This document shows, piece by piece, positions 10,912 through 35,401 of a stretch of DNA of 64,000 nucleotides. Each line of letters begins with the position of its first letter. The first letter of the stretch is position 1. Both the position numbers and the translations under genes were made by a program. The notes under the pieces were generated by a model. The model ran no database searches. It saw only the letters and a program-made list of their open reading frames with translations, and was not told the DNA's origin. The stretch comes from Telmatactis stephensoni. Its lineage: Eukaryota; Cnidaria; Anthozoa; Actiniaria; Isophelliidae. The stretch is from positions 186,001 through 250,000 of the forward strand of contig JALIZF010001537.1 in the NCBI GenBank assembly GCA_029948255.1. Reading direction: 5' to 3'.

Positions 10912-10933
10912 AAATTATTCACTTGGACAATTC

Positions 10934-13800
10934 GGTAATACGTCCATGTTCACATACACCAATGGGGAAAAATCCACAATAATTCTATACCGTCACTGCT
11001 ACTACACGTAATTGAACATCACTAGCCATCATCAGACGTTAGTATGCATCACTACATGTTATCATCCATCACTATCCATCACTCTCCATAACTATAAATC
11101 ATTATCCGTTACTAGCCATGATTATCCGTCACACGCATCACTAACCGTCACTACGCATCACTATCCGTCACTACGCATCACTATCCATCACCAGGCATCA
11201 CTATCCGTTACTAGGCATCGATATCCGTCACTATCCATCACTATCCGTCAATAGCCATCACTTTCCATCACTAGTCATCACTATCCATCACTATCCGTCA
11301 CTAGCTATCACTATCCGTCACTAGGCATCACTATCCGTCACTATCTATCACTTTCCATCATTACCCATTACTAGGCATCACTATACATCACTATCCATCA
11401 CTGGCCATCACTATACATAACTATCCATTACTAGCCATCACTACCTATCACTATACATCACTATCCATCACTTGCCATCACTATACATAACTATCCGTTA
11501 CTAGCCATCACTTTCAATCACTACCTATCACTATACATCACTATCCATCACTGGCCATCACTATACATAACTATCCGTTACTAGCCATCACTTTCCATCA
11601 CTACTTATCACTATACATCACTATACATCACTGGCCATCACTATACATAACTATCCGTTAATATACTAGCCATCACTTTCCATCACTACTTATCACTATA
11701 CATCACTATACATCACTGTCCATCACTATACATAACTATCCGTTACTAGCCATCACTATTCGTCACTAGCCATCACTTTCCATCACTACCTATCACTTTC
11801 CGTCATTATCCATCACTAGACATCACTATACATCACTGTCCATCACTAGCCATCACTTTCCATCACTACTTATCACTATACATCACTATCCATCACTGGC
11901 CATCACTATACATAACTATCCGTTACTAGCCATAACTTTCCATCACTACCTATCACTATCCATCACTATCCATCACTGGCCATCACTATACATAACTATC
12001 CGTTACTAGCCATCACTTTCCATCACTACTTATCACTATCCATCACTATCCATCACTGGCCATCACTATACATAACTATCCGTTACTAGCCATCACTTTC
12101 CATCATTACTTATCACTATACATCACTATCCATCACTGGCCATCACTATACATAACTATCCGTTAATATACTAGCCATCACTTTCCATCACTACTTAACA
12201 CTATACATCACTATCCATCACTGGCCATCACTATACATAACTATCCGTTACTAGCCATCACTTTCCATCACTACTTATCACTATCCATCACTATCCATCA
12301 CTGGCCATCACTATACATAACTATCCGTTACTAGCCATCACTTTCCATCACTACCTATCACTATACATCACTATCCATCACTGGCCATCACTATACATAA
12401 CTATCCATTACTAGCAATCACTTTCCATCACTACCTATCACTATACATCACTATCCATCACTGGCCATCACTTTACATAACTATCCGTTACTAGCCATCA
12501 CTTTCAATCACTACTTATCACTATACATCACTATCCATCACTGGCCATCACTATTCGTCACTAGCCATCACTTTCCATCACTACCTATCACTTTCCGTCA
12601 TTATCCATCACTAGACATCACTATACATCACTGTCCGTCACTATCCATTGTTAGCCATCACTATCCATCACTATCCATCACTAGCTATCACTATCCGTCA
12701 CTAGGCATCACTATCCGTCACTATCTATCACTTTCTATCATTACCCATTACTAGGCATCACTATACATCACTATCCATCACTGGCCATCACTATACATAA
12801 CTATCCGTTACTAGCCATCACTTTCCATCACTATCCGGTATTAGCAACTAGTAGCTATCACTAGGCATCACTATCCATCACCAGGCTTCACTATCCGTCA
12901 CTACCTATCACTATCCATCACTAGCCATCACAGACATGACTGGCCATCACTACCTATCACTTTCCATCATTATCCGTCACTTGGCATGACTATCCATCAC
13001 TAGCAATAACTATCCGTTACTAGCCATTACTAGCTATCACTAGGCATCACTATTCGTCACCAGGCATCACTATCCGTCATTCCCTATCACTAGCCATAAC
13101 TATCCGTTATTAGCCATCACTACCTATCACTTTCCATCATCATCCATCACTACCCATCACTAGGCATCACTATCCATCACTATCCATCACTATCCATCAC
13201 TGTCCGTCTCTAGGCATCACTATCCGTAACTTGCCATTACTAGCTATCACTAGGCATCACTATCCATCACCAGGCATCACTAGCCATCACTTTCCATCGC
13301 TTGCCATCACCATCAGTCACTAGCCGTTACTAGCCATCACTATCCGTTATTAGCCATCACTATCCATTATTAGCCGTTACTAGCTATCACTAGGCATCAC
13401 TATCCGTCACCAGGCTGCACTATCCGTCACTACCTATTACTATCCGTCACTAGGCATCACTATACATCACTATCTGTCACTAGCCATCACTTTCCATCAC
13501 TTGCCGTCACCATCAGTCACTAGCCATCACTATCCGTTATTTGCCAACACTATCCGTTATTAGCCATCACTATCCGTTATTTAGAGGTTAACGCACTCAG
13601 CGAGTGAATTATCGGGATTTATATTCACGAGTTTGCTAACAATGAACGAGAAATTTTAAATACTGTACGAGGCGTTAGCCGTCACTAGCCATCACCGACA
13701 TGACTGGCCATCACTATACATAGCTATCAATCATCCGTTAGCCATTTCTATTTGTCACTTCCCAACACTATTCGTCACTAGCCGGCACTACAGTTAGGCA
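10934..13800 (+). repeat. Left inverted-terminal satellite array of the giant element
   Basis: About 80 bp of unique terminal sequence is followed, from about 11015, by hundreds of 10-bp units of the type CACTATCCAT, CACTAGCCAT and CACTATCCGT. They keep a strict 10-bp register for most of 11,040-13,570. A higher-order repeat of eight units (80 bp, beginning CTGGCCATCA CTATACATAA) recurs many times between about 11,400 and 12,540. The array ends around 13,570, with degenerate units again at 13,675-13,800. Open frames here are repeat artefacts. Confidence 0.95.
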
Positions 13801-14316
13801 TGTTCCATTCTCTGTCTATTCATATTAGTTTCGTTTTTCACTAATCGAAGCAAAGGCAAATCTCGAAGTTTAGTCGATTTTTGAGAACAACTACGTATGT
13901 GTGGCAGTGGTATATAAATCGACGGCGTATGTTTAGATATTTTTGTAACAACAACTATTTAGTTCTGAATTTTCATTGGTTGTTCATTTATCATATTGTA
14001 ACAATTTAATTTAGCATTTCGTAGCTCTAGTAATAAACTATCTATATATCTACTCTGTTAAAAGATAGCTTCTAAGGTAGCCAAGTTTGCAATGTTGCCT
14101 TTCGCCCTTTTTTTGAAATTCATGATTAGATAAACAATACTAATAGCTGCCATCAAATGAATTACGTATTATTTTATGGGAAACACCGCAAAATAGCATG
14201 ACAGACCATGACAAATGCAGGACAGACTAATGACAACAAATGACAATAAATTAACAAGAAAACACCGCCAACCTCTGGTTCCCCGGACACCAATAATATA
14301 AAAATTAGGTACTACC
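13801..14316. other. Interior of the giant element, no gene seen
   Basis: AT-rich sequence with stops in all frames and no recognisable repeat boundary. Confidence 0.5.
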
Positions 14317-16349
14317 TAATAGCGGAGCTCCCATTTTTAAAAATAAATAATAATTTTAAATACTTTGTTTTTGACGTTTTTGATTCAAATGAATTGGGCT
14401 TCCTGTGGTAATAGGCAAACAAAGATTGCATTTTGTTGTAAAAGTTGAAATAAAGATATTTATAGATCAAGCTTTATAGCATTTGCTTTAGGGTTTGAAA
14501 AAACTATTGCCCTTCAGTCTCCTGAGAATTATATGGCTTTCAAGCCATATAGTCACCACAGTGATATTTATTCAGATTCAGTCAGATTTTATAATTGACT
14601 TTGTAGTAGTGGTGGTTCATAATTCTCAGAAATAGAATGCAAAAATCCCTCACTCAAACTAATTTCATTCACATAAATACTGAACCTGATTTCAACATCC
14701 CTCAATTAAACAATTAGACATTGCAGAATATTATATTTAGATTTTTCTGTCTTGACAGTATTGTGACATCTTGTTTTTGTACTATGTAGAATAGAATGAC
14801 ACAGATAAATAGTTGTCTTTACACGAAACAAGAATTCTCTCTTCCAGGTTACACTAATCATGACTTTAGATGAAATTGTAAAACAACTCAAAACAACTAC
14901 TACCTAAAAGCAGAGCTCCAATTTCAATTTTAATATTCTGTGGCTTCCTGTGGTAATTGAAAAATTTGAAATGAAGATTATTTTAAAAAGCATTTTTAAA
15001 ATAAGTTGTGGTTTTGGTTTATATATTGTATGGGCTTGTAAACTCAGTGACCTTAATATTACAGTAAATTTTAATATTCAGATTCACTGTCAGATTTCAT
15101 AATTGACTTTGTAGTGGTTCATAATTTTCAGAAATAGAAAGCAAAAATCTCCAAAACCTTTTTTAGATATTTGATACAAGTAATTAAACCTTCTCAACAT
15201 CCTGGATATTACAGAACAACATATCTTAATTTGTCTGTCTTCACTATATTGTGACATCTTGTTTTTTTCTGGTTCAGTGTTGTTGTTGTTTTGCTTTGTT
15301 TTTTAATGTAGAATAGAATGGCACAATACTTGTCTCTTCCAGATTACACTGATAATACAATTTAAGCTTAAAGTGATTATAAGAACAGCTACTTGAAATA
15401 AATAACAAGAAATTAAGCATTTTCAATTTGCATTTAAGGTCTCATAGGGCTCATTGAGAAACTTCATGCTTAAGCTTAATGGTAAAACAGCTCTAGTTTG
15501 CATGCAAAATTCCTTCTTTTTTTCCTGTCAATTTTTTCATTAAATTACAGACCCAAACTTGAGCTGTATTTTATACACATTAGTGGGGTTGAAATAAGTT
15601 CAAAATCAATTTTTTGCTAATTTTATTTTTAAAAGTAGTGCAAAACGTTCACCGTAAAACAAAATGTCATTGTCATGCCTGTACTTGAGTGTTTGTTTAA
15701 ACTTGGCCATAGTTCAGCGTGCATAAACGTATATTTTTATAAGTCATCAATCCCAAATAAAAGATAAATGATCAAATCAGTATAGGTACAAGAGACTTTT
15801 TGACATCATCTTTTGGCCAGGGTCTTTACCTTGAAGTGCCTTCCTTGTTGTCTTTAGAAGCTAAGCATAGTCCTCGTTTCATGTTCAATGCAGACGATTC
15901 TTGATTTCCAACTACTGACTGAGATTTTTAAGCAGCTTTACTGAAGGCATAGACTTCACGAAACGAAGAATACACGATCCTCAATGACTGATTCATTATG
16001 AGAAGTTTTTTGAAGCTACAAATCCAACTAAGTAAAAAGCTGTCCAACTTTGAAAATGTTCTCTGTGTCCTCTCGTCTCTCGAGCATGTTCTCTCGTCTT
16101 TCGAGCAGCTTTTGAAACGACACCGGGCTCGAAAAAAAATTCAAAGGTACGTTGTTTTCGCTTCAACCCGTCAAAATTGGCACAGATTAATGATCATGAA
16201 AATCTCTAAATTTTTACGAGGTTTCGAGAATAATCTTTTTAAGTTTTGCAAGTTAAAACTGCAGGGAAACTTGTAAATTTTCAGTTTTCAAAGTGTCAGC
16301 GCGCGTCAAGTTGGCGCCAAAAATCAATCAGCCAATCAGCATCGCGATG

Positions 16350-16412
16350 TACACGGACGTATGTACGGACGTATGTATGTATGTATGTATGTATGTATGT
16401 ACGGACGGACGT
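16350..16412. repeat. (GTAT)n / GTACGGAC microsatellite
   Basis: GTAC-GGAC and seven to eight GTAT repeats occur within the right half of the 2.2-kb repeat. They are mostly missing from the second copy (near 27,605-27,635), so this tract varies in length between copies. Confidence 0.8.
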
Positions 16413-16488
16413 ACAGCCGTTGGGCTCCCTGTGTGTCCATGAAAAATCAACTCGATGGGTTACCATTTTTTCTTAGGTATGGTGCTCC

Positions 16489-16517
16489 GCTCGCGCGGGC
16501 CTTCGGCCCGCGCGGGA
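16489..16517. repeat. GC-rich perfect palindrome at the repeat's right end
   Basis: CGCGCGGGCC, a short TTC loop and GGCCCGCGCG form a very stable hairpin in an otherwise AT-rich region. Copy B lacks one half of this palindrome (GCTCGCGCGGGAGCTCC), as if it had been deleted by replication slippage. Confidence 0.7.
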
Positions 16518-16531
16518 GCTCCGCTATTAAA

Positions 16532-17217
16532 ACAATACAATAATAAAACATTTAAAATCAAAACAATACAATACAGTATAAAAGCAATACGATAAAATAT
16601 TTGAACATAAAAACCGCACATTGCAACGTTTAGCTTATTAGGCATGCATTGCAACACGTACCGCATCTTTCCCGGAACTTTTCAGCCATTCAGCACCGCA
16701 ACAACCGGGCAAACACCACAAGTCCTTAAACCATACATAATGTTGGACTATCGTGCTAAATGTATGTGGAGCAAGAAAACCAAAATATAATTAGTTTGAT
16801 GTTTTGAAACGGTTTTTGTTCACAAATCTAACATCACATTTTGGTCAATTTACGCATCACGTGCACGCGCTGCCAAATTATGTCAATTCTCGAATTACGG
16901 GCCAATCACGATCAAATCACGGAAACCTATTTTCCCGTCTTTTTCAAGATGCGTATATTAATTCATACGGAATGTAACTGTTGTCAGGTTGCAAGTCGCA
17001 CGATTGGAAATTTGCTTGTTAATTAAAATCACGGACTAATTATAATTTTAGCCTGAATCACGCATCAAGTGAATTTGATTTTAGTTCAGAATCATCAACT
17101 TTTATTGACCGAACAATAGACCTTGGATGGCTACCCTGACAATGCTCCTAAGTAATAATTCGCGCGCTTGATACACGCGACTCTAGGCAGTTTGTTACAT
17201 CCGCCATGCTGACGGGT
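16532..17217. other. Interior of the giant element, no gene seen
   Basis: Short ambiguous frames only. 16,540-16,610 is an AATACAA-rich low-complexity tract. Confidence 0.4.
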
Positions 17218-18304
17218 CAGGGTGGCCCAGGGTTAAAGCGTAACGCGTGATTCGGCCTAAATTAAGTGCGTGAATCGTGAAAATAGCAAAATTTATTGTG
17301 TGATTCGTGAATTCCATGTTCATTGTGACGCGTGATTCCCATTTTAAAATGTACGTGATTTGTGAATGATTCGAAGTCGTGACAAATAAAAAATTTAAGA
17401 TAAAGCTCTGGGGTTATTAGAGACTGAGATCAAATTCCCGTTTCAATGCACAATTTCAGCTGAGCGGCTCGCGCTTTGCGCTCGCCATAACAGGCATGCA
17501 GTTTGGGAATGGCAAGTAGCACAAATCCTTCTTGGGTAATGCTAATATGCGCTGCAAGAGGTTCCCATGTCCTTGGGAAAGCAATCTCTGTAATTATCTA
17601 TAATTTATTTTTCACTGAGCGGTTCGCTCCTTATATACGCCCGCTTTTTAAACAATGCAGGCTAAATAATCTTAACAGATTAGTCTTTATTCTCGAGTAA
17701 TGCTCATATGAGGCTTTACAAAAGCATCCACCGTCTATATATGAGAAAGTGCAGGAGTGAGTCGTTAAGATCACCTGTAGCTCAATTTTTGATGAGCGAC
17801 TCGCTCTCCGCGCTTGCAACTTGATGAGTACTATCATATTCTGTCTTTACAACTCTTTCATTAGCACAATTCCAATTCCATTCCCGTGCTCAATATACAG
17901 ATTTCAGAGAGGAGTCTTGTACAATTTTAAACACTTTACAAACGTAAGAGCTCATTGTTGTTCCTTCTTTCTGGCTGGATTGTCGATTCACAAAGAAAAA
18001 TTTAATGTACCCCTCAGTCACAAGTTATTGAATTCATTGTTCCTTTGACATCGTTCTGTGACATCAGAGGCCTTTAAGAAAGGCCTTGTCACAATATGAT
18101 TTGCCTATATATGTAAAATTAAATATAAATCATCATTCAAAGCAAACAAAAATCTGCACGTAGAAATGCTGGAAAGCGAGATTTTTTACGTTTATTTTAG
18201 TTGAAATTTGTGATTCTTGAATTTGAGATAAAATTGTACGTGACGCGTGAATGTTGGAAATATCGATACGTGAAACGTGATGCCGACCCCCCTGGGCCAC
18301 CCTG
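17218..18304. mobile_element. Nonautonomous DNA element with CAGGGTGGCCCAGGG ends
   Basis: CAGGGTGGCCCAGGG at 17218-17232 is repeated exactly, inverted, at 18290-18304. The next bases pair only weakly. CAGGG ends are common in hAT-type elements, which suggests but does not prove that class. The flanks are similar (GACGGGT left, GCGGGTC right) but do not give a clean target duplication. The 1.09-kb interior has no transposase and contains many GTGATTCGTGAA- and ACGCGTGA-like motifs in both orientations. Confidence 0.6.
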
Positions 18305-18737
18305 GCGGGTCTCCCACAACTGTAGAACAATGGATCCTCTGTACGGACAGTTTTGTCTTATATTCACTTGCCCATAACTCTTCGAATAAACACGATTTGG
18401 CTTTACAATTTGACCAATTAGTGTGTATTTGAATGTATATACTGCTATGGATGTCTTGGAAGCAAAATATGCTTTGCAAATGCTTTAAAGGCTTTCGAGT
18501 TTGATACCACGCTTTGCCTCATACTGTGGTCATGAGTTAGGTCACGGATTGCCTGGAAGATGTCTTTCAAGTATAGGTCTAAACGGTCCAGTTAAATGCA
18601 ACCACGCGGTGACATTATAAGTTGCTACCGTTTGATTGGTTCTCGAACTGGCACTGTTTGGAGTGTTCCTCGTATACGACCTAGCTGTAGATCATTCTTC
18701 TTTGATGCTTTCAAACGAACAGTCAAGTCTATGAAAT

Positions 18738-20626
18738 ATGGCGACTCAGAGCAACTCAGAGCTGACTTCCGAGGCAGCGGAGGAGAGAGTCGAAGAGGTA
18801 GACCCGTTTAAGCTCATAAAAAGAGATGGAGTGCTCGGCTTTGAACGAGCGAAAGAGTTCGAAGCCGTCACTAATTTTGATGTGGACGTTAGCGGGTATG
18901 TTGGCCATGATGGCCATATTGCCGGCTACATACTAAACATTCAACTGGCCGTAACAGACCCTCTCGAGGCAGTCTCCAATAATTCAATGTAAGTTTGTCT
19001 AGCTAGCTTATCCTGTCACAGTGACACTTATTTTCTAAAAATACATGTAACTGGTTATGAAAGAAACGCACACTTTGCGTCTATGCGTAAATACCCAGCT
19101 TTGAACCACAAGTTGAATATATTCATAATTCGGCCCGCCCGTGAGTGCCTATATAAACTGAACCCGAGTTTGCTGTATGTCAGTCATATCATATAAATGA
19201 TTATGCTATTAAAATATCTAAATCTGAGAATTAGAAAATAACCTTTGAGATCGAGCTTTTATGTCGGTTCTTTAGTTCGGGTTCGGGTAGCTCAGGTTGC
19301 AACTCCTCATGGTTTTTGGCGGGACATTGTGGTTAGTTGACACAGGAAGGCCAGTCAGCACAGTATCTGCGTCTACAGAATTTTGCTCCAGCGGTTGTAT
19401 AGTGATAATAGACTCTATTTGTTTTGTGCAGTTGAACCGAAATATAAAATTTAAATGTGGCCTACTTACATTGCGATGTAATGTTTTATTTAGGGCCATC
19501 TATTTAACAAACAAACAGTTAGGGAATCAGGTCGCCATTGTTAAAGCGTTAACATCAAGCTCCCAAGCAGTGTGGTGTGCCCAGAGTAAAGAAATTTACT
19601 TACCACAGTTTGTCTACAAACTATGCAGCTCCTACATACAAGGACCTAACCCCAGACGGTTATTACTGGTCAAGGTATTTAAGCATAACATTATTCATAT
19701 TACTTAAGCAAGAACAGACATTTTAAGATTTCCTATAATGGAAATTCGCTGCTGAGAGGCCCACACAGACGTTTCGGACACTCGAAACGTCAGAAATGTA
19801 GGGTGGGTCTCTGTCTGTAAGGAATTAGAGGTTTTTATATGCTATCCCTTTTCATCATGAATCATTTCATTACAAAAACAAGAGCAAAATAAAATTTTCA
19901 TTGAATCGCTTTTTATAGGCATTTTTGAGGAAATATATGTTTTGTATAAATTTAGGAATATAAACAATTAAGCTTAAATTGACCTTTATTGACTTATTTT
20001 TACAAAATTGTACACGTTGTTTCATCTTTTTTCATGCGGAATTCTTGTTTGCTGTATAGATCAAATAATCTTAGACTTATTTAGTAATTGTACAATTAGT
20101 AAATTGTTTACCCTGGAAACAGGACTTTGATATAGTATACTCATAGAGTAGCCTGCGTCACATCTGGACTTTTCTTCGGCTAACCAAAGAAAAGTGTGGA
20201 TATGATGCAGGCTAGTGTACAGAGATAGGGAATGCCTCTAGAAGTAATACAAGTTTGAAATTTCTTTAAGTCTCTTGTTTTAAATTTGATGTTTTTTTTA
20301 AATTCCTTTATTAGGACCTCTCTAAATTTCATTTGTACCTATTAAAAATCATCATTAATATTTGTTTATGCCAAATCTCCACCTCTTGTCTGCAACCCCT
20401 GCCCCACAAGGCTTTATTAGCATGGGAAGGTTAACTTTTGATTTGACAATTCTTTTTGCTCAATTCACTTCAAAGAATATAGGGAAGCAACCTGGAGGTG
20501 ATGCTTGGGTGTTTAACAAGGTGGTTCAAATGAATAAAGAAGGAGAAGAAATCCAGGCTGCTGACCAGAGGTATATTGTGATTGATGAAGAAGGACAGTT
20601 ACCTGTTATCAATGCAATATCAGGAG
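18738..20626 (+). CDS. Unrecognised spliced gene inside the giant element
   Basis: Exon 1 (18738-18988) starts MATQSNSELTSEAAEER and includes DPFKLIKRDGVLGFERA and FDVDVSGYVGHDGHIAGY. It ends in phase 2 at AAT|GTAAGT. Exon 2 (19494-19674) follows a TTTAG acceptor in the matching phase, reads AIYLTNKQLGNQVAIVKAL and CAQSKEIYLPQFVYKLCSSY, and ends AAG|GTATTT. A third coding block (about 20362-20626) reads SMGRLTFDLTILFAQ and QRYIVIDEEGQLPVINAIS, and ends GGAG|GTAAGT. Its 5' acceptor is not clear and an exon may be missing. I recognise no known domain. Its location makes it candidate cargo or an accessory gene of the element. Its 3' exon or exons may lie beyond the inserted gypsy element (a possible short one near 27770-27826). 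Confidence 0.45.
19755..19811. repeat. Imperfect hairpin in intron 2 of the unrecognised gene
   Basis: GACGTTTCG and CGAAACGTC pair perfectly around a 6-nt loop. The flanking GAGGCCCAC and GTGGGTCTC extend the stem after bulges. It is probably a short foldback element. Confidence 0.5.
20149..20214. repeat. Snap-back element, about 28-bp stem
   Basis: TAGCCTGCGTCACATCTGG followed by ACTTTTCTT pairs with AAAGAAAAGTGTGG and ATGATGCAGGCTA around a loop of about 9 nt. It is 66 bp in all. A foldback element or a structured RNA element is possible. Confidence 0.6.
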
Positions 20627-21324: not shown

Positions 21325-21457
21325 TGTAGTGTACTTATGTAAGGTCAGCGGTTGACCATGTGAGTAGTGGAGCAATAAAGATGGCGGACGTCCCGAAGGA
21401 CTTGTTGTGAGTTTAATCTGTTTCAATCTCGTGGATACACCGGCCATCGGTACTACA
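21325..21457 (+). repeat. Gypsy 5' LTR
   Basis: 133 bp, TG...CA ends, near identical to 25623-25755. It includes a short AATAAAG and the string GATGGCGGACGTCCC. Confidence 0.9.
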
Positions 21458-21506
21458 TCTGGCGACGAGGAATAAAATTAAGTTGTTAAGAAGGCGTTGA
21501 CGAACG

Positions 21507-21969
21507 ATGGCGTCCTCAATATTAGAAACTGGAGGATTAAAACCGTTTGACGTACACAGTGACCCGAATAGTTTAGCACTGGAATGGAAGCGATGGCTTC
21601 GAAGTTTTCAACTTTATGCTGATGGAAAAGGACTGATTATATTTCCTGATAAAGATGACAACAAGATACAGCGGAGAGCTTTACTCCTCCATTCAGCAGG
21701 ACCCGACGTTCAAGATATTTTTATGTTTTACCAGATACTGGAGGACCGAAGGAATACGCAAAGGCAGAGAAGGCCCTGAATGATTATTTCGTGACCCAAG
21801 TAAATATTCCATACGAACGACATCAGTTCCGTGAAATGAGTCAGAAGAAGACGAAACCATTGATCAGTATGTAGTACGATTAAAGCGTAAAGCAGAAGCA
21901 TGCAGTTATGGCGATCAGACGAATGACCAGATCAGAGATCAGATAATATCAACGTGTCGTTCCAGTGAA
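21507..21969 (+). pseudogene. Gypsy gag, N-terminal part, frameshifted
   Basis: The frame starts MASSILETGGLKPFDVHSD about 50 bp after the 5' LTR and contains WKRWLRSFQLYADGKG, the usual capsid-like start of Ty3/gypsy Gag. It goes out of frame near 21,735; the next frame carries KEYAKAEKALNDYF. A second shift near 21,840 returns it to the frame of the main polyprotein. As written no full-length Gag can be made. Confidence 0.8.
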
Positions 21970-24453
21970 TTGCGTCGCAAGCTTCTGGAGAAAGGTCAAG
22001 CCTTGACGTTGAAAGAGTTGAAAGATACCGCGAGGACTTTTGAAGCCGTGAAACGCCAGTCAAGAAGCATGAGTAGCCATTTTGATCAAGCTAACGTCAA
22101 TAGAGTAGTAGAAACACAAACATCCAGGTCACCATATGGTAGAGGGAGAGGGGCTAGTCGTCAACCCAAACCAGAGGACAAGAAAAAGGAACCGCAGTCA
22201 GGTGGGGGAGAGTGCTATAGATGTGGGAGACATGGACATTTTGCCAAAGACCAAAATTGCCCTGCAAAGAACAAAACATGTAACAAGTGTCATCAAACAG
22301 GACACTTTGCTTCTGTTTGCAAAACAGATAGTGGTCGTGACAGAGGGGATGGCAAAGTTAACCTTGTTGAGTCTGAGGAGTCTGATGATGAATATGCCTT
22401 TAGTGTGAGCTCAAGAGAAAGCATGGAAAGGGTAGATGTGACCGTTGGAGGCCACATAATTTCAATGATTGTGGATTCAGGTGCAAGCGTCAATGTCATA
22501 GATCAGAAGCTGTGGAGTGAGCTGAAGGAACAAAGGATAAAGTGCAAGTCGAGTAAGTCAAGCAAGAAATTATTTGCATATGGGAGCACAGAACCACTGA
22601 ATACTCTAGGAACTTTTACTGCTCTGACCTCTGTTGGACAGAATTCTGTGGACGCAGAATTTATCGTGCTTGAAGGCAAAGGGGAGCCACTTCTAGGAAA
22701 GACAACAGCAATGCAGTTAGGAGTGCTGAAGATTGGCCCAGATATCAGACAAGTCAACCAAAGTGATCAACTAATGAGTGAGTACACAGAATTGTTCCAT
22801 GGGGTGGGCAAATTGAAAGACTACCAGTTGAAACTACATATTGACCCAAATGTCACCCCAGTCGCACAGCCAGCTCGACGTGTGCCATGTGCCCTGAGGG
22901 ATAAAGTGAAAGATAAGATCGAAGAATTAGTAGAGATGGATATAATAGAGTCTGTAGAGGGGCCCACACCCTGGGTCAGTCCAGTTGTTGTTGTTCCCAA
23001 GCAAAATGGTGAAATCCGCTTATGTGTTGATATGCGACGTGCAAACGAGGCCATCGTCAGGGAAAGACACCCAATTCCAACTGTAGATGATGTGCTGCAC
23101 AGTTTAAACCAGAGCACGGTATTCAGTAAACTTGATTTAAAATGGGGTTATCACCAGATTGAGCTAGAACCTGCCTCCCGGAGTATCACTACCTTTGTCA
23201 CCCATTGTGGTTTGTATAGATACAAGAGATTAATGTTTGGCATTAATGCAGCCCCGGAAATCTACCAACATGTGATTCAACAAACACTGCAGAATTGTGA
23301 GAACACTGCAAACATTTCAGATGATATTATTGTACATGCTAAGAGTGTGGAAGAGCATGATCACATACTTGAGGAAGTGCTGAAGACTCTGAGGGAAAAG
23401 GGACTGACCCTGAATGCAGAGAAGTGTAAGCTACATATGACACAACTTGAGTTCATGGGTTTTGTTTTGTCAAAGAATGGAATTGGTCCAGCTGAAGAAA
23501 AGGTTAAGTCTGTTGTTAATGCAAGAGAGCCTGAGAGTGCCTCAGAAGTAAGAAGTTTCCTGGGACTAGTTAACTACAACGCACGATTTATTCCTGATTA
23601 TGCAACAATAACTGAGCCGTTACGCCGCTTGACAAAAAATGATGTCCCGTTTGTGTTTGGAGTAGATCAGAGGAAAGCTTTCAACGAGTTGAAGTCAAGA
23701 TTAAGTCGTGCAGAGACTTTGGCATACTTTAACAAAGATGCCAAGACCAGAGTCATCACAGATGCTAGTCCAGTCGGCCTTGGCACAGTTTTAACGCAAG
23801 AGCATGATGGTGAGTTTAGAGTTGTAAGCTATGCGAGCCGAAGTCTGACTCCTGTTGAAAGAAGATACTCTCAAACTGAAAGGGAAGCGCTTGCCATTGT
23901 ATGGGCATGTGAACGGTTTAATGTTTACTTGCATGGTGTTGAGTTTGAGCTGTGTACAGACCACAAACCTCTCGAAACTATTTACTCAGCTAAGTCTAAA
24001 CCAAGTGCAAGGATAGAGAGTTGGGTGTTAAGACTACAACCCTACAAATTCAAGGTGAAATACATTCCAGGAAAGCAAAATGTTGCGGATTCCCTGTCCA
24101 GGCTTATGCAAGTGGAAGACTCTGTTTCATCACCAGAGCAAAGAGTAGCAGAAGAGTTTGTTAGATTTGTAGCTGTCAGTGCAACTCCAAAAGCCATGAC
24201 CACAAGAGAAGTGGAAGAAGCATCAGCAGAGGATGAAGAGTTAAGAGAGTTACGGCATTGTATAAGTAGTGGACAGTGGCAGAACACCCAATGTAAGGAA
24301 TACATACCTGCGAGTGGAGAGCTGTGTGTAATTGGTAAGCTAGTACTAAGAGGTACGAGAATTGTAATTCCACGCAAGCTGAGACCCCATATCTTAACCT
24401 TAGCACATGAAGGACACCTCGGTATCGTCAGTATGAAGCAAAGGCTAAGGTGA
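21970..24453 (+). CDS. Gypsy Gag C-terminus, protease, reverse transcriptase, RNase H, start of integrase
   Basis: An open frame of 827 codons. Two CCHC knuckles lie at residues 82-117 (CYRCGRHGHFAKDQNC and CNKCHQTGHFASVC). An aspartic protease follows at 169-172 (VDSGAS). The reverse transcriptase has motif A KLDLKWGYHQ near 389 and ISDDIIV near 450, where the usual tyrosine-x-Asp-Asp is x-Ser-Asp-Asp. RNase H shows ITDAS near 598, the glutamate in TEREALAIV, and CTDHKPLE. The integrase zinc-binding domain begins at HEGHLGIVSMK. A TGA at 24451-24453 then interrupts the frame; the same frame continues beyond it. Only whole-polyprotein production depends on that stop; enzyme domains up to RNase H are uninterrupted. 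Confidence 0.9.
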   Translation: MRRKLLEKGQALTLKELKDTARTFEAVKRQSRSMSSHFDQANVNRVVETQTSRSPYGRGRGASRQPKPEDKKKEPQSGGGECYRCGRHGHFAKDQNCPAKNKTCNKCHQTGHFASVCKTDSGRDRGDGKVNLVESEESDDEYAFSVSSRESMERVDVTVGGHIISMIVDSGASVNVIDQKLWSELKEQRIKCKSSKSSKKLFAYGSTEPLNTLGTFTALTSVGQNSVDAEFIVLEGKGEPLLGKTTAMQLGVLKIGPDIRQVNQSDQLMSEYTELFHGVGKLKDYQLKLHIDPNVTPVAQPARRVPCALRDKVKDKIEELVEMDIIESVEGPTPWVSPVVVVPKQNGEIRLCVDMRRANEAIVRERHPIPTVDDVLHSLNQSTVFSKLDLKWGYHQIELEPASRSITTFVTHCGLYRYKRLMFGINAAPEIYQHVIQQTLQNCENTANISDDIIVHAKSVEEHDHILEEVLKTLREKGLTLNAEKCKLHMTQLEFMGFVLSKNGIGPAEEKVKSVVNAREPESASEVRSFLGLVNYNARFIPDYATITEPLRRLTKNDVPFVFGVDQRKAFNELKSRLSRAETLAYFNKDAKTRVITDASPVGLGTVLTQEHDGEFRVVSYASRSLTPVERRYSQTEREALAIVWACERFNVYLHGVEFELCTDHKPLETIYSAKSKPSARIESWVLRLQPYKFKVKYIPGKQNVADSLSRLMQVEDSVSSPEQRVAEEFVRFVAVSATPKAMTTREVEEASAEDEELRELRHCISSGQWQNTQCKEYIPASGELCVIGKLVLRGTRIVIPRKLRPHILTLAHEGHLGIVSMKQRLR

Positions 24454-25515
24454 AAGGTATGGTGGCCTGGCATTACAAGTGATGCTGAAAAGTTTTGCAA
24501 AACCTGTCATGGGTGCCAACTGGTAGGCCAACCCACCCATCCAGAACCTGTAAGGTCTACACCATTACCAAGTTCACCATGGCAAGATCTGGCGATAGAT
24601 TTCTTGGGACCCCTACCATCAGGACATTCTGTATTAACTGTGATAGATTACTACAGCAGGTTCTATGAAGTTGCCATTATGAAATCAACGACCACTGACA
24701 AAGTAATTGAGAGCTTAGAAGAGATCTTCTCCAGACACGGATTGCCACAAACAATAACAAGTGACAATGGCCCACAATTCATATCAGGGGCTTTTAAAAT
24801 GTATCTTGCAGATAATGGCATCAAGCATAGGAGAATCACCCCATTGTGGCCGCAGGCCAATGGGGAAATCGAAAGACAAAACAGGTCTCTTCTTAAGAGA
24901 ATGCAAATTGCACAGGCAGAGGGGAAAGACTGGATGCAGGAAGTGCGCAGATACCTCTTGGCTTATAGGGCTACGCCACATACGACAACTGGAGTGAGTC
25001 CAGCAGAACTACTTTATGGACGACAGATTAGGTCCAAACTTCCAAGTATCCAGGAAGCTACAAGGGAAGGAGATTTCAGTGATCGAGATGCAGAAATGAA
25101 GATGAAAGCTAAGATGTATGCTGACAAGAGGAGGAATGCAGAGACCACAGAGTTGAATCCAGGAGATCAAGTACTTCTAAAGCAACCCAAAGAAAACAAG
25201 TTATCGACAGCATTTGCAGCAGAACCATTCCAAGTGGTGGACAAAGATCGGAATAGTGTCATCATAGAATCCCCACAAGGAGTCCAATATCAGAGGAACG
25301 TTACACACGTAAAGAAATACAACACACCTACTCCAAGTTCATTGTTACAAGACTACATGGAAGAGGATGGGATGTGCGACCACGCAAGATCCCAAGAGGG
25401 ACAAAGGGACACCCACATGCAAGACTTGGAAGACCCTCAAGAAGAAGTTCCTGCAGCAGCAAGACCCACTCGTACAAGACAAGTACCAAAAAGATTTGAA
25501 GACTTTATGCACTAA
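24454..25515 (+). CDS. Gypsy integrase, downstream of an in-frame stop
   Basis: This continues the same frame after the TGA: VWWPGI, then the paired cysteines CKTCHGC that complete the HHCC zinc-binding domain. The catalytic core follows (DFLGPLPSG, VIDYYSRF, TSDNGPQF, NGEIERQNRSL) with the D, D and E present. A basic C-terminal domain with PGDQVLLKQPKENK follows, then a tail ending PKRFEDFMH. There is no envelope-like gene between the stop and the polypurine tract. Confidence 0.88.
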   Translation, partial: KVWWPGITSDAEKFCKTCHGCQLVGQPTHPEPVRSTPLPSSPWQDLAIDFLGPLPSGHSVLTVIDYYSRFYEVAIMKSTTTDKVIESLEEIFSRHGLPQTITSDNGPQFISGAFKMYLADNGIKHRRITPLWPQANGEIERQNRSLLKRMQIAQAEGKDWMQEVRRYLLAYRATPHTTTGVSPAELLYGRQIRSKLPSIQEATREGDFSDRDAEMKMKAKMYADKRRNAETTELNPGDQVLLKQPKENKLSTAFAAEPFQVVDKDRNSVIIESPQGVQYQRNVTHVKKYNTPTPSSLLQDYMEEDGMCDHARSQEGQRDTHMQDLEDPQEEVPAAARPTRTRQVPKRFEDFMH

Positions 25516-25622
25516 CATTGAACTGCTATTATCATGTTTGATTGTTTAACACTTTATTGAACAATTTTGGAACGTTAATGTTTGAGTTATATATCATTTA
25601 TTTGTTTGAAAAAAGGGAGGGA

Positions 25623-25755
25623 TGTAGTGTACTTATGTAAGGTCAGCGGTTGACCATGTGAGTAGTGGAGCAATAAAGATGGCGGACGTCCCGAAGGACT
25701 TGTTGTGAGTTTAATCTGTTTCAATCTCGTGGATACACCAGCCATCGGTACTACA
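25623..25755 (+). repeat. Gypsy 3' LTR
   Basis: Directly repeated copy of the 5' LTR, preceded by the polypurine tract and followed by the GTTAC target duplication. Confidence 0.9.
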
Positions 25756-26074
25756 GTTACTATTAATAAATGTTTTGTGTTCTTCAGCTTCTGTCATGTT
25801 CCCTCAGAATACAGAACATAGCTTCCACTGATCTTTTTGTTTAGTGACTTAATAATCTCAATTTAGAACAGCACAAATAGAATGGTTTGGCTTAACCAGT
25901 AAAATAGATAGGGGGTCCAATAGCTGACTTATAGACACTGGCAAGACCTTGGCAAGATCGTGGCAAGAATATCCATGGCAAGATTGCATGATTGATAAGA
26001 TCTTGCAAGATCCCCCAAGATCTTAATCATACCAAGATCCCATAAGATTTTGTAAGATTCCTCCCATTTAAATA
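25756..26074. other. Flank with short GCAAGATC repeats
   Basis: After the gypsy target duplication the sequence resumes the pre-insertion flank. 25,945-26,060 contains many imperfect GGCAAGATC / CAAGATCCC units. No gene. Confidence 0.5.
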
Positions 26075-27735
26075 AAAATAATAATTTTAAATACTTTTTT
26101 GACGTTTTTGATTCAAATGAATTATAAAATACACATTAGTGGGGTTGAAATATATGTTCAAAATCAATTTCTTTTACTAATTTTATTATTAAAAGTAATG
26201 CAAAAAGTTCACTGTAAAACAAAATGTCATTGTACAATTTAAAAAACGTTTGTTTTTTAAGTCATCAATCCCAAATAAAAGATAAATGATCAAATATAGG
26301 TACGAGAGACTTTTTAACATAATTTTCTAACCAGGGTCTTTACCTTGAAGGGCTTTCAATTCCTTGTGTTACGAGACAATAAATCGATAATCAATCGATA
26401 TTTCAAAAAACGAGTTGTATCCAAAGACATACAATTGGACATACTTATGATTGACAGTTCAGAAGTAGTTTTAGTTACTTCTTATACGAAAAAACCAAAT
26501 TAACAACTACAAATGATTATAATTAAGTCTTTGAGTTACACGATAATTACGCAGGAAACTTTGGTAAACTTTTCGTCTACTGTTGACATGAGTTTGTTCT
26601 GATTTGCATGATTATTATTCGCTAAATTTTAGGGGATAGTACGTCCCACTTTTTCATTTACACCTGTCTACGCCCAAGTCAAGTTGTAACTAAGATTTCT
26701 TTCTTGGATATAACTTTGGACTAGTTGAAAACTCTTTACTTTTGTCACATATTTTTGCAAATAGTATTTCTTGATCTAACTTTTCACTATATGTAATTCT
26801 TGATCTAGACCTAAAATTTTGGTATGAGTCTTGAACTCATTAAGTTATACTCCTAAATTCTAACCAATCACAAAGTTACTTTTAGTTCATGATTGACATT
26901 GTAAATCTATGACGAATCACGTCCATAAATACAGATAGTAGTAGTTGTTGGAAGTTGATGTAACTTGATCAACCAATAAAAGCTCGAACGGTACCAGCTT
27001 TGCCAAGAGGTGTCCCATAACACTTGTTGTCTTTAGAAGCATAGTCCCCCAGGCATAGTCCTTGTTTCACGCTCGACGGCAGACAATTCCTGATTTGAAA
27101 CTTTAGCTACATTTTTAAGCAGCTTTACTGAAGACATCTTCACAAAACGAAGAATACACAATCCTCAATGACCCATTCATTGTCAGAAGTTTTTTGAAGC
27201 TATGAATCCAACTAAAAAGTCGTCCAGCTTTGAAAATGTTCTCTGTGTCCTTCGGTCTTTCGAGCAGTTTTTGAAACGACACCGGGTCCGAAAAAAATAT
27301 TCAAACGTAGGTTGTTTTCGCTTTAACTCGTTAAGATTGTCACAGATTAATGATTATTAAAATCGCTAAATTTTTTAGGTTTCCAGAATAATATTTTTAA
27401 GTTATGCAAGTTCCAGTAAAACTGCAAAGAAACTTGTAAATTTTCAGTTTTCAAAGTGTCAGTCAATCTCGAACCCAGCGCCTGTGTTCCTCTTGGTCAG
27501 TACTGGGCTCGCGTCCGCTGACCAGACGCTGGCTCTCGAGATTGAGTGTCAGTGCGCGCCAAGTTGGCGCCAAAAAGCAATCAGCCAATCAGCATCGCGA
27601 TGTACACGGACGTACGACGTACCTAAGTACGACGGATACAGCCGTTGGGCTCCCTGTGTGTCAATGAAAAAGCAACTTGATGGGTAGCCATTTTTTCTTA
27701 GGTGTGGTGCTCCGCTCGCGCGGGAGCTCCGCTAT
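26075..27735. mobile_element. Nonautonomous TIR-bearing repeat, copy B (about 1.7 kb)
   Basis: This matches copy A (14317-16531) in the same orientation. Shared blocks include AATAATAATTTTAAATAC, TTGACGTTTTTGATTCAAAT, CACATTAGTGGGGTTGAAAT, TTGGCGCCAAAAA, AATCAGCATCGCGATG and the end GGGAGCTCCGCTAT. It lacks the left TIR, most of the tandem 5' portion and one half of the GC palindrome. It has gained an 81-bp foldback element at 27464-27544. Confidence 0.7.
27464..27544. mobile_element. 81-bp foldback insertion with 9-bp target duplication
   Basis: CAATCTCGAACCCAGCG on the left pairs with CGCTGGCTCTCGAGATTG on the right. The direct repeat AGTGTCAGT flanks it (27455-27463 and 27545-27553). Copy A of the host repeat carries the empty site (AGTGTCAGCGCGCG at about 16,290), which confirms an insertion. 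Confidence 0.8.
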
Positions 27736-27796
27736 AAATGATTTAAATCTAATGTACTTCAAATTTTTCAGGGACCATATTGGATTGTTTGCAGAC

Positions 27797-29992: not shown

Positions 29993-30060
29993 TTCAGTAT
30001 ATATGTAATATATACATATGTAATATATATATATGTAATATATATATGTCAGTATATATG
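29993..30060. repeat. (TA)-rich ATATATGTAAT microsatellite
   Basis: Repeated ATATATGTAATATATA units upstream of the transposase gene. The rest of 29,418-30,269 is AT-rich and noncoding. Confidence 0.8.
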
Positions 30061-30269
30061 CTTCTTATGACAATATTTAGGTAGTTAGTATATATTCTTA
30101 CTGTGTTAATTAGTTAATATTACATATTCAATGTATTATTTTATCATTTTGATATCTATTATTGTTATCTACTGTAAATTTTACTTAGAAAGCACTTTGG
30201 ACAATTAGTGTTTTAGCAGTTTTAGCGGGATGTGTCGATTTCAAGTGTGCGATTCCATATGCCAGCGGT

Positions 30270-31889
30270 TTGATCAGAGGGTTGAGCCCTCATATCTTCT
30301 GTTCTGCGGCTAATGCGTCAGCCTTTTCACACGTGTGTCAATTGTTATTCGTAGTATCAATATTATCAAAAATGTATTTCTTATCGCTATTTATTTTTTT
30401 AATTTGTCTCCTATCTTGCTGTCACACGATGAAGATTTCTGAGTTCACCTTCAAAAGGATCGAAGCAGCTATAAACAACTTCAAAAGTGGTGGGTATCGG
30501 GTGCTAGTTATTCAAGATATTTCAATGGAAGTATGCGACGGACAAACACCTCACTACGAAGACTATTTATCTCCACCAATCATGGTATGGGATGTTTTAC
30601 AAAGCTACAGTAATTTGGTAAAAGATATAACATGCCATATCTGTAAAGCCAAGGACGTGTTATCGAGACTTAGGGTAGCGGGACTTTGGACAAACGATTG
30701 TGCGTCGTCGTATCCTCCAAGGCTCATCTACGATACATCCAGGTATATTCTTCTGGTTTCATCTATTTACATTTGTCCACATAATCATCGAGTTCCATCA
30801 CACCACCCCACCATTCTTTCTGCACTTCCTTGTAATGCACATGTTCCGTTTTATTTGACAAACCGTGCTGGATTTACTGTTAATCTGTTAGAACAGATAT
30901 GTTCTCTAGTTGATCACGGTATGAGTTTTCTTGGTATCGAAGGTATCGTTGAGGATCAATATCTTCATACCTACAGTACATGCAAAGCGAAATATGTCCG
31001 AGATAAAGACTCAAACATCTCATTTCCAGAATTTTCACAGGAAGTGTTCACTTTCCCTCATGAGAAAAGCATAAGGAATGTCTTTTTATCTTACTCCTCA
31101 TTGTTTGAGGAAGTTTATAATAAAGATATGGCAGAACGTACTTCACATTGGTTATGCTGTGATCATACATTTAAAAGTGCTGCCAATATTCGTCAATATA
31201 GAGGAAGTGATGGTCGCTGGATAAAGCTCTTCAAATGCATATTTTGTGTACTTGGGATTGAAGGTGATATCCTCCATTGGCAATTCACAAGCGGAGAATC
31301 TTTTGATGAAGTGAGGCATGTTTTTAAAGAACTAAGAAGCCATTTGAAATGTAAAGGATTGGTATTAGATGGGATAATAATTGATAATTGCTGCAAATGG
31401 AAAGGAATGCTTTCTGTAGAGTTTCCCAATGTCCCAGTCAAACTCGATCTTTTTCATGCTGTGCAGCGCTTCACAAAGACGTTAAATTCAAAGACTAGAA
31501 AGAACAGTGGTGTGTCAAAAGATTATGGTATGATATTTAGACAACCAACAGATTTAGGTGAGAAGAGACAGCAATGTACAGCTAATGCTAGTACAATTTT
31601 AAAGAATCTGGAAAGTTTTGTAACGAAATGGAACGATGTTAAGTGGAATGGTGAAGATATACTGGGCACTCAAACACACCTAGCTATTTCAAATTTAAAG
31701 AAACACATTGAAAAAGGTTGCCTTAGTGGAATTCCAGCACATTGTTCTATTTCTGGAAATGAAAGGCTGCACAGAACTATGAATGCTATACTAAAAACAA
31801 ATAAAATTAGCCTTGATATGGCATATCCAGGATGCAGTACACTTTTTTTTAAAAGCAACAATTTTAAAGTGATGGAAAGTGATCGCTAG
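30270..31889 (+). CDS. DDE-type transposase-like protein of the giant element
   Basis: An open frame of 539 codons. Residues 1-53 are hydrophobic and probably not translated; M54 (MKISEFTFKRIEAAI) is a better start, or an exon joins here. A Cys-rich segment CHICKAKDVLSRLRVAGLW precedes the catalytic region. There CCDHTFKSA gives Asp298, GIIIDNCCKWK gives Asp372, LDLFHAVQRF follows, and SGNERLHRTMN gives Glu498. The D-D-E spacing is about 73 and 125 residues. I recall similar uncharacterised multicopy proteins in cnidarians, sponges and fish and infer a cut-and-paste transposase; I cannot name the superfamily. The C-terminus runs straight into the satellite (last residues FKVMESDR are repeat-encoded), so the native end may be lost. 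No internal stop or frameshift is seen. Confidence 0.7.
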   Translation: MIRGLSPHIFCSAANASAFSHVCQLLFVVSILSKMYFLSLFIFLICLLSCCHTMKISEFTFKRIEAAINNFKSGGYRVLVIQDISMEVCDGQTPHYEDYLSPPIMVWDVLQSYSNLVKDITCHICKAKDVLSRLRVAGLWTNDCASSYPPRLIYDTSRYILLVSSIYICPHNHRVPSHHPTILSALPCNAHVPFYLTNRAGFTVNLLEQICSLVDHGMSFLGIEGIVEDQYLHTYSTCKAKYVRDKDSNISFPEFSQEVFTFPHEKSIRNVFLSYSSLFEEVYNKDMAERTSHWLCCDHTFKSAANIRQYRGSDGRWIKLFKCIFCVLGIEGDILHWQFTSGESFDEVRHVFKELRSHLKCKGLVLDGIIIDNCCKWKGMLSVEFPNVPVKLDLFHAVQRFTKTLNSKTRKNSGVSKDYGMIFRQPTDLGEKRQQCTANASTILKNLESFVTKWNDVKWNGEDILGTQTHLAISNLKKHIEKGCLSGIPAHCSISGNERLHRTMNAILKTNKISLDMAYPGCSTLFFKSNNFKVMESDR

Positions 31890-34800
31890 TAACGGATAGT
31901 TATGTATAGTGATGGACAGTGATGTATAGTGATAAGTAGTGATGGAAAGTGATGGCTAGTAACGGATAGTTATGTATAGTGATGGCCAGTGATGGATAGT
32001 GATGTATAGTGATAAGTAGTGATGGAAAGTGATGGCTAGTAACGGATAGTTATGTATAGTGATGGCCAGTGATGGATAGTGATGTATAGTGATAAGTAGT
32101 GATGGAAAGTGATGGCTAGTATATTAACGGATAGTTATGTATAGTGATGGCCAGTGATGGATAGTGATGTATAGTGATAAGTAGTGATGGAAAGTGATGG
32201 CTAGTAACGGATAGTTATGTATAGTGATGGCCAGTGATGGATAGTGATGGCTAGTGATGGGTAATGATGGAAAGTGATGGCTAGTAACGGATAGCTTTGT
32301 ATAGTGATGGCCAGTGATGGATAGTGATGTATAGTGATAAGTAGTGATGGAAAGTAATGGTTAGTAACGGATAGTTATGTATAGTGATGGCCAGTGATGG
32401 ATAGTGATAAGTAGTGATGGAAAGTGATGGCTAGTAACAGATAGTTATGTATAGTGATGGCCAGTGATGTATAGTGATAAGTAGTGATGGAAAGTGATGG
32501 CTAGTAACGGATAGTTATGTATAGTGATGGACAGTGATGTATAGTGATAGGTAGTGATGGAAAGTGATGGCTAGTAACGGATAGTTATGTATAGTGATGG
32601 CCAGTGATGTATAGTGATGCCTGATGATGGGTAATGATGGAAAGTGATGGCTAGTGACGGATTTTGATGCCTTGTGATGAATAGTGATGGGTAGTGATGA
32701 CTAGTGATGGAAAGTGATGAATAGTGACGGATAGTGATGTCTAGTGATGGATAGTGATATCTAGCCGGATGTCTAGTGAGGGATAGTGATGGCTAGTAAC
32801 GGATAGTGATGGATAGTGATGCCCAATGACGGACAGCGATGTGTAGTGATGCCTAGTGATGGGTAATGATGGAAAGTGATAGGTAGTGATGGATAGTGAC
32901 AGATAGTTATGGTCAATACCGGACAGTGATGGCTAATAACGGATAGTGGTGACTAGTAACTAATAGTGATGTATAGTGATGGCTAGTGACGGATATGGAT
33001 GGCTAGTGACGGATAGTGACGGATAGTGATGGCTAATAACGGATAGTCATGCCAAGTGACGGATAATGATGGCCAGTGACGGACAGTGATGGATAGTGAT
33101 GCCTAGTGATGGAAAGTGATGCCTAGTGACGGACAGTGATGCCTAGTGACGGACAGTGATGGAAAGTGATGCCTAGCGACGGCCAGTGATGTATAGTGAT
33201 GCCTAGTGATGGGTAATGATGGAAAGTGATGCCTAGTGACGGACAGTGATGGAAAGTGATTCCTAGTGACGGATAGTGATGGCTAGTGATGGGTAATGAT
33301 GGAAAGTGATGGCTGGTAACGGATGGTTATGTATAGTGATGGCCAGTGATGGATAGTGATGTCTAGTGATGGATAGTGATGCCCAGTGATTGATAGTGAT
33401 GAATAGTGATGCCTAGTGATGAGTAATGATGGAAAGTGGTAGGTAGTGATAGAAAGTGATGCCTAGTGACGGATAGTGATGGCTAGTAACGGATAGTTAT
33501 GTATAGTGATGGCCAGTGATGGATAGTGATGTATAGTGATAGGTAGTGATGGAAAGTGATGGCTAGTAACGGATAGTTATGTATAGTGATGGACAGTGAT
33601 GGATAGTGATGTATAGTGATAGGTAGTGATGGAAAGTGATGGCTAGTAACGGATAGTTATGTATAGTGATGGCCAGTGATGGATAGTGATGGATAGTGAT
33701 AAGTAGTGATGGAAAGTGATGGCTAGTATATTAACGGATAGTTATGTATAGTGATGGCCAGTGATGGATAGTGATGTATAGTGATAAGTAGTGATGGATA
33801 GATAGTGATGCCCAATGACGGACAGCGATGTGTAGTGATGCCTAGTGATGGGTAATGATGGAAAGTGATAGGTAGTGATGGATAGTGACGGATAGTTATG
33901 GTCAATACCGGACAGTGATGGCTAATAACGGATAGTGGTGACTAGTAACTAATAGTGATGTATAGTGATGGCTAGTGACGGATATCGATGGCTAGTGACG
34001 GATAGTGACGGATAGTGATGGCTAATAACGGATAGTCATGCCAAGTGACGGATAATGATGGCCAGTGACGGACAGTGATGGATAGTGATGCCTAGTGATG
34101 GAAAGTGATGCCTAGTGACGGACAGTGATGCCTAGTGACGGACAGTGATGGAAAGTGATGCCTAGCGACGGCCAGTGATGTATAGTGATGCCTAGTGATG
34201 GGTAATGATGGAAAGTGATGCCTAGTGACGGACAGTGATGGAAAGTGATTCCTAGTGACGGATAGTGATGGCTAGTGATGGGTAATGATGGAAAGTGATG
34301 GCTGGTAACGGATAGTTATGTATAGTGATGGCCAGTGATGGATAGTGATGTCTAGTGATGGATAGTGATGCCCAGTGATTGATAGTGATGAATAGTGATG
34401 CCTAGTGATGAGTAATGATGGAAAGTGGTAGGTAGTGATAGAAAGTGATGCCTAGTGACGGATAGTGATGGCTAGTAACGGATAGTTATGTATAGTGATG
34501 GCCAGTGATGGATAGTGATGTATAGTGATAGGTAGTGATGGAAAGTGATGGCTAGTAACGGATAGTTATGTATAGTGATGGACAGTGATGGATAGTGATG
34601 TATAGTGATAGGTAGTGATGGAAAGTGATGGCTAGTAACGGATAGTTATGTATAGTGATGGCCAGTGATGGATAGTGATGGATAGTGATAAGTAGTGATG
34701 GAAAGTGATGGCTAGTATATTAACGGATAGTTATGTATAGTGATGGCCAGTGATGGATAGTGATGTATAGTGATAAGTAGTGATGGAAAGTGATGGCTAG

Positions 34801-35377
34801 TAACGGATAGTTATGTATAGTGATGGCCAGTGATGGATAGTGATGTATAGTGATAGGTAGTGATGGAAAGTGATGGCTAGTAACGGATAGTTATGTATAG
34901 TGATGGCCAGTGATGGATAGTGATGTATAGTGATGCCTAGTAATGGGTAATGATGGAAAGTGATAGATAGTGACGGATAGTGATGCCTAGTGACGGATAG
35001 TGATAGCTAGTGACGGATAGTGATGGATAGTGATGACTAGTGATGGAAAGTGATGGCTATTGACGGATAGTGATGGATAGTGACGGATATCGATGCCTAG
35101 TAACGGATAGTGATGCCTGGTGATGGATAGTGATGCGTAGTGACGGATAGTGATGCGTAGTGACGGTTAGTGATGCGTGTGACGGATAATCATGGCTAGT
35201 AACGGATAATGATTTATAGTTATGGAGAGTGATGGATAGTGATGGATGATAACATGTAGTGATGCATACTAACGTCTGATGATGGCTAGTGATGTTCAGT
35301 TACGTGTAGTAGCAGTGACGGTATAGAATTATTGTGGATTTTTCCCCATTGGTGTATGTGAACATGGATGTATTACC
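31866..35377 (-). repeat. Right inverted-terminal satellite array of the giant element
   Basis: The same decamer family as the left array, in reverse orientation (ATAGTGATGG-type units on the plus strand). It runs from just after the transposase frame to about 35,300, then the unique 70-80-bp terminus ends at 35,377. The 80-bp higher-order unit is present. The array is about 3.5 kb, against about 2.6 kb on the left; most of the excess is a 989-bp internal duplication. Confidence 0.95.
32811..34789. repeat. 989-bp tandem duplication inside the right array
   Basis: A distinctive run containing GCCCAATGACGGACAGCGAT at 32821 recurs at 33810, offset 989 bp. The sequences after it agree almost base for base for nearly a kilobase, including rare variants such as GTCAATACCGGACAGTG and a lone ATTAACGG spacer. 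The first copy joins the second within GGATAGATAG near 33,800. The near identity implies a recent unequal exchange. Confidence 0.85.
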
Positions 35378-35401
35378 AACAATTCATTGTTAAACAGAAT
35401 T

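Follow-up and report, generated by a model that had tools for sequence, protein, structure and literature searches.

What kind of element is bounded by kilobases of inverted satellite DNA, and what might such ends do? The question is raised by a 24.4-kb segment of the Telmatactis stephensoni genome, lying in a window of 64,000 nucleotides (C427:186001-250000; the assembly comprises 1782 contigs and totals 483.5 Mb; positions without a contig are those of the window) whose gene and transposon content supports a eukaryotic source. A first-pass annotation had described the segment as a giant transposon with satellite arrays for terminal inverted repeats, either a new superfamily or a giant relative of a known one. 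The explanation considered likely here is a cut-and-paste transposon family of Mutator/IS256 type (Mutator-like element, MULE) with Foldback-type ends, in which the arrays would serve as transposase-binding sites.

Ends, copies and target sites

The left tip of about 130 bp (GGTAATACGTCCATG..., 10934..11063, + strand) lies beyond the regular decamer array, and the right tip of about 130 bp (35248..35377, - strand) was placed by genome tip matches, setting the last base of the element at 35377 instead of the 35378 annotated before. Both tips start with GGTAATAC, and a 30-base pattern taken from the tip, with up to 3 mismatches permitted, was found in the window at 10934 (+) and 35377 (-) only, with 0 mismatches each, compared to 0 matches in 100 shuffles. 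Inside the tips, Tandem Repeats Finder delimited a left array at 11064..13575 (+; consensus CC(A/G)TCACTA(T/G)) and an inverted right array at 31868..35247 (-), both as 20/30-bp composites of one decamer. The arms (10934-13501 versus 35377-32775) aligned in inverted orientation with 83% identity. Their lengths of 2.6 and 3.5 kb correspond to the long terminal inverted repeats of MULEs, while their composition of short tandem repeats is that of Foldback-type ends. The order of units was also shared: after the outermost 130 bp had been trimmed from both arms, the local alignment score between the arrays was 1527, versus a mean of 423 (maximum, 474) for 100 shuffles of 10-bp units and a mean of 802 (maximum, 862) for 100 shuffles of 20-bp units. 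In successive blocks of 200 columns, starting at the tip and with gap columns scored as differences, identity was 100, 94, and 95% and then 53 to 86%. The inverted arrays, common unit order and matching nonsatellite tips reported at first reading were therefore all confirmed.

A genome search with the 130-bp tip returned 36 matches, of which 27 were essentially full length, 1 was 91 bases long, 6 were inner pieces, and 2 were diverged (83 to 85% identity). Of the full-length tips, 22 formed 11 inverted pairs and 5 were single, two of the latter (C122 and C157) looking allelic. The pairs spanned 7.5, 7.9, 8.2, 8.9, 9.3, 9.7, 10.5, 11.8, 13.3, 24.4 (window), and 48.8 kb. Since both 1.5-kb flanks of the 48.8-kb pair on C385 matched those of the window insertion (98.9% and 99.3%), this pair is the other allele, and the 11 pairs therefore represent 10 loci. 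Giant size as a family trait was ruled out, as 9 of the 11 pairs span 7.5 to 13.3 kb and the other two represent the two alleles of one insertion.

Perfect 8-bp direct repeats, as expected of MULE target duplications, flanked the element at 9 of the 10 loci (TGAATTTC, TAAGCTTC, GAGCTAAG, AACAATTC, AACAAAAG, GCACGAGT, GAAAATTG, GCAAAACG, and AAAATCCT) and had no obvious consensus. By flank comparison, the window element lies between GACAATTC (10926..10933) and AACAATTC (35378..35385), a 7/8 match, while the C385 allele carries AACAATTC on the left also and matches at 8/8. The direct repeat outside the tips had been noted at first reading with a length of 6 to 7 bp. When the flanks of an element were joined and searched for an uninterrupted site elsewhere, empty sites were found for C973 on C1240 (100%), C357 on C496 (96%), C216 on C1016 (98%), and C470 on C101 (99%). 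The C725 and C564 copies are inserted in repeats, other copies of which run uninterrupted across the site. The search with the C354 flanks found no uninterrupted site, none was seen for C689 among the 40 of 1114 candidates scored, and the joined flanks of C147 and of the window locus were run only in one swamped search; at the window locus both known alleles are filled. Copies C725 and C973 were read whole and C375, C385, C154, C689, and C564 in part. From these sequence comparisons, it was concluded that this is a mobile transposon family with precise ends and 8-bp duplications. The C725 target is itself a high-copy repeat, present at C1169:52095-52841 and in over 40 other places as a stretch of about 300 bp, often in inverted pairs about 140 bp apart, with copies 99 to 100% identical.

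A diverged relative was observed at C59:469929-472200 (L069), where a tip of 84 to 85% identity adjoins an array, at least about 2 kb long, of another decamer, CC(G/A)TT(A/G)CTT(A/G); as judged by alignment, tip and period are retained and the unit sequence is changed. A further diverged tip, similar to that of C59, is at C755:157754-157813.

The decamer arrays and the transposase

Five arrays from three elements of the window family shared the profile CC(A/G)TCACTA(T/G), in which T4, A6, and T8 were conserved at 94% or more, and showed only 1 to 6 register jumps per 2.5 to 3.4 kb. An exact 28-base decamer pattern had 180 matches in the genome (reversed control, 0). The 100 of these that were listed all fell on 7 tip-bearing contigs, forward matches beside left tips and reverse matches beside right tips, with no free-standing decamer satellite among them. 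The suggestion that the element spreads decamer satellites thus stood for its own family and found no instance elsewhere among those 100. In an allele comparison covering 1.6 kb per arm, the left arms differed by indels of 80 and 480 bp, with 1614 of the 1630 remaining bases identical, and the right arms by indels of 10, 10, and 172 bp. The right array also contains a duplication with an offset of 989 bp, 99.9% identical over 700 bp. Because of these indels and this duplication, the changes in array length look like the products of unequal exchange or slippage. A second, shorter decamer array was seen at 49345-49841 (consensus near CCATG(A/G)CTAT; its frame matches that of the element decamer); it has no adjoining tip sequence (up to 3 mismatches) and is possibly the remnant of a related element.

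The transposase open reading frame (ORF; 30372..31889, +) encodes 505 amino acids from the first in-frame ATG, and its final 7 or so codons and stop lie inside satellite DNA. The transposase noted earlier as touching one array is therefore closer to it than described, the right array supplying the end of the reading frame. The OTU-like domain of relatives is missing from the window protein, and at the sequence level the satellite is shown to stand where the 3' part of the gene was. The predicted fold is that of an IS256/Mutator-type DDE transposase, ISCth4 ranking far above every other fold in Foldseek. The N-terminal domain has invariant C, C, and H columns (MULE zinc-finger types are WRKY-GCM1, FLYWCH, and SWIM); Phantom-clade transposases often carry a FLYWCH domain. 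Two relatives, C50 (E, 2.6e-4) and C294 (E, 0.068), matched the Pfam MULE domain, neither of them reaching the curated cutoff. OTU families were precomputed in 9 of the 120 homologs listed, and weak OTU matches below cutoffs were obtained for P0001, P0002, C294, and C50. The Mutator-like assignment was deduced from the predicted fold, the duplication length, and the long ends; the predicted fold and the 8-bp duplications likewise tell against the proposed new superfamily.

To survey relatives, 30 transposase loci with 1.5-kb flanks were examined for arrays of at least 300 bp. Arrays were present at 11, of which 3 are the window family itself and among which C563/C67 and C401/C62 are near copies. 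Controls, which comprised less sequence per piece or fewer pieces than the test loci, showed no such array in any of 28 outer tip flanks (1.49 kb each) or in any of 8 window tiles (4.3 kb). The relatives' units were 19 bp (9+10), 20 bp, 22 bp (11+11), and 30 bp (three tens), with sequences that were largely different, and one C202 decamer, GGATAGTGAA, was close to the reverse complement of the window-family unit. At C294, inverted 20-bp arrays enclose an 852-amino-acid transposase that has an OTU-like match; at C50, inverted 19-bp arrays enclose two ORFs. The array-bearing rows did not form one clade in a tree of window-protein homologs alone. At C203:600671-606082, three transposase matches occur on the same strand, 2376 bp apart, as if the transposase-bearing unit were itself tandemly repeated.

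Proposed role of the arrays and size of the window copy

In the proposed mechanism, the DDE transposase would act at the conserved tips of about 130 bp and insert the element with 8-bp target duplications, a chemistry suggested by the fold. The decamer arrays inside the tips would offer a long series of closely phased binding sites, spaced roughly a helical turn apart, which could gather and pair the transposase molecules of both ends. The comparisons show array length to vary mostly by complete units, which would reflect unequal exchange, slippage, or gap repair. The 3' end of the transposase gene, OTU-like domain included, would have given way to array growth or a rearrangement, and growth may exceed usefulness and destroy the gene, leaving noncoding copies. 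Most copies have no transposase gene and are presumably mobilized in trans. Binding by the arrays is suggested by analogy, since the tandem end repeats of Galileo bind the THAP domain of its transposase (PMC3688188) and Muta1, an active mosquito MULE, has 12-bp subterminal repeats with 3- to 4-bp linkers (PMC5225508); here and below, statements on published systems refer to excerpts of the cited papers. More tentatively, the ends of this lineage may keep spacing rather than sequence: with arrays repeating about once or twice per helical turn, the transposase may form a helically phased filament on satellite DNA, array and DNA-binding domain coevolving. This was suggested by the recurrence of 9- to 11-bp subunits (in 19-, 20-, 22-, and 30-bp composites) of largely different sequence beside distantly related transposases.

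Several observations weigh against the preferred explanation, which for the arrays' binding function draws on analogy. No array of at least 300 bp was found within 1.5 kb of 19 of the 30 transposase loci, and at C202 and C401 the array was on one side only, the other side being read 3.0 to 3.5 kb further. The window protein had no Pfam MULE domain (PF10551) up to E 10, and no solved structure was matched by its N-terminal domain (residues 18-171), which presumably binds DNA. The transposase alleles differed by 14 nonsynonymous and 3 synonymous codons (dN/dS, about 1.2), and there is therefore no sign of recent selection keeping the transposase. One right-arm indel, that of 172 bp, is no multiple of ten, and the C689 flanks contained no target duplication. 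In addition, 33 of 49 homolog rows with a usable N terminus (35 of the 84 rows in alignment A2 being unusable) had a signal-peptide-like start by a crude hydropathy cut (11-residue mean of at least 2.2 in the first 45 residues), compared to mostly 0 to 6% and up to 29% for later 45-residue blocks per protein. Such a start is odd for a nuclear enzyme. In the window protein the hydrophobic stretch is at 30372-30440 (MYFLSLFIFLICLLSCC...).

The same transposon could carry passive arrays, near-end short repeats grown by slippage with no role in transposition beyond the tips. The allelic indels and the 989-bp-offset duplication would follow from this, as would the invasion of the transposase gene, the fall in identity between the arms within the first 600 or so columns, and the 19 loci lacking a nearby array. 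It is nevertheless thought unlikely, given that register is nearly perfect across kilobases, that polarity fits the end in every listed pattern match, and that C59 and other relatives keep a period of about 10 or 20 bp despite different unit sequences.

Assignment to another DDE superfamily (P, hAT, or KDZ/Zisupton), or to one of its own, was judged very improbable. Duplications of 8 bp also occur in those three groups, the P element transposase is in the Foldseek list with a weaker match (E, 2.0e-4), and the window protein fits no Pfam family; the ISCth4 match is well ahead of the rest, however, the C50 relative does match Pfam MULE, and a Mutator group with an OTU domain has been recorded from Cnidaria (PMC6446971). 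A chromosomal inverted duplication or a collapsed-satellite assembly artifact has a negligible chance of being correct. Such events can yield inverted satellite blocks, and assemblies often err in arrays, but the ten loci have different flanks and precise ends, nine have 8-bp duplications, empty sites exist, and two haplotigs agree on the window insertion. The first-pass annotation had named tips never paired elsewhere and the lack of duplicated targets as grounds for abandoning the transposon; paired tips and duplicated targets were found, and both the inverted duplication and the artifact were ruled out.

The large size of the window copy is due to a 4.4-kb Gypsy-type long terminal repeat retrotransposon (21325..25755, +; terminal repeats of 133 bp with 99% identity; domains for protease, reverse transcriptase, RNase H, and integrase) and an insertion of about 2.2 kb (14306..16524) that is missing from all four copies aligned across the site (L061, L062, L067, and L068). 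Between their arrays, shorter copies hold portions of two internal segments, 13676..14305 (+; retained in L061, L062, L067, and partly L068) and 16525..18879 (+; parts retained, by copy alignment). Because it is flanked by short inverted ends containing GAGCTCCGC, the 14306-16524 insertion is probably another DNA transposon. Within the same element, 26061-27724 is 81 to 91% similar to parts of this insertion. At 45072-46139, a 355-amino-acid ORF that encodes a DDE_3 endonuclease domain (E, 8.5e-12) marks a separate DNA transposon.

Comparison with known transposons

The Drosophila Foldback elements (FB and FB-NOF) have ends of short tandem repeats, including 10-bp units, and a 9-bp target duplication, which differs from the 8 bp of the window family. 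MULE duplications are 8 to 11 bp (PMC6446971). Among MULEs of Aedes aegypti, 10 of 12 long-ended families have 9- to 15-bp subterminal tandem repeats, and these elements and Muta1 resemble the window family in a Mutator-kind DDE transposase, long terminal repeats, noncoding derivatives, and 8- to 9-bp duplications without sequence preference (PMC5225508). Their repeats are short and subterminal (PMC5225508), whereas the window element has 2.5 to 3.4 kb of contiguous decamers per end and an array that truncates the transposase gene. Tm1, a Mutator/Foldback element of root-knot nematodes, likewise has composite ends, with a variable number of tandem repeats of about 14 bp, as well as 8- to 10-bp duplications, a Phantom-like transposase, and noncoding copies; it differs in its asymmetric terminal motifs, a commonest duplication of 9 bp, and a unit of 13 to 15 bp (PMC3169594).

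Tetris of Drosophila virilis is alike in its Foldback-type ends with internal tandem repeats, 8- to 10-bp duplications, kilobase satellite-like arrays derived from end repeats, and alleles that vary in repeat number; its unit is about 220 bp and no coding copy is known (PMC4079207). Tetris repeats are found, too, in contigs that lack the remainder of the element (PMC4079207), whereas none of the 100 listed of 180 decamer matches was of this kind. The ends of Galileo are also long and internally repetitive, but it belongs to the P-element superfamily and has few sites, versus hundreds of contiguous units here (PMC3688188). For the cnidarian MuDR-6_HM, an OTU motif is recorded, while terminal repeats are listed as none and duplications are marked not indicated; a minisatellite precedes the 3' terminal repeat of Rehavkus, and another follows the transposase ORF of aphid Phantom (PMC6446971). 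No kilobase inverted decamer arrays are described for these three in the excerpts of that paper. Likened by description, the window element may be near the OTU-bearing MuDR-6_HM group, with the OTU part lost in the window copy.

In the excerpted literature on these systems, no description was found of the kilobase decamer scale per end, of the near-perfect register, or of several kinds of array within a single transposase lineage of one genome. Tandem-repeat transposon ends are seen here at the kilobase scale of satellites, next to a transposase lineage that has been identified, and the genome also contains two distant relatives whose inverted arrays differ in sequence but are similar in period. 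This makes it testable whether such arrays are working transposase-binding platforms and how transposon ends seed satellite DNA, and it offers one route to partial gene loss, in which an element's own end array takes the gene's place. Compared to the known systems, the element is an extreme form of a known design: the ends of a Mutator-kind family are kilobase decamer arrays, one of which has run into the transposase gene.
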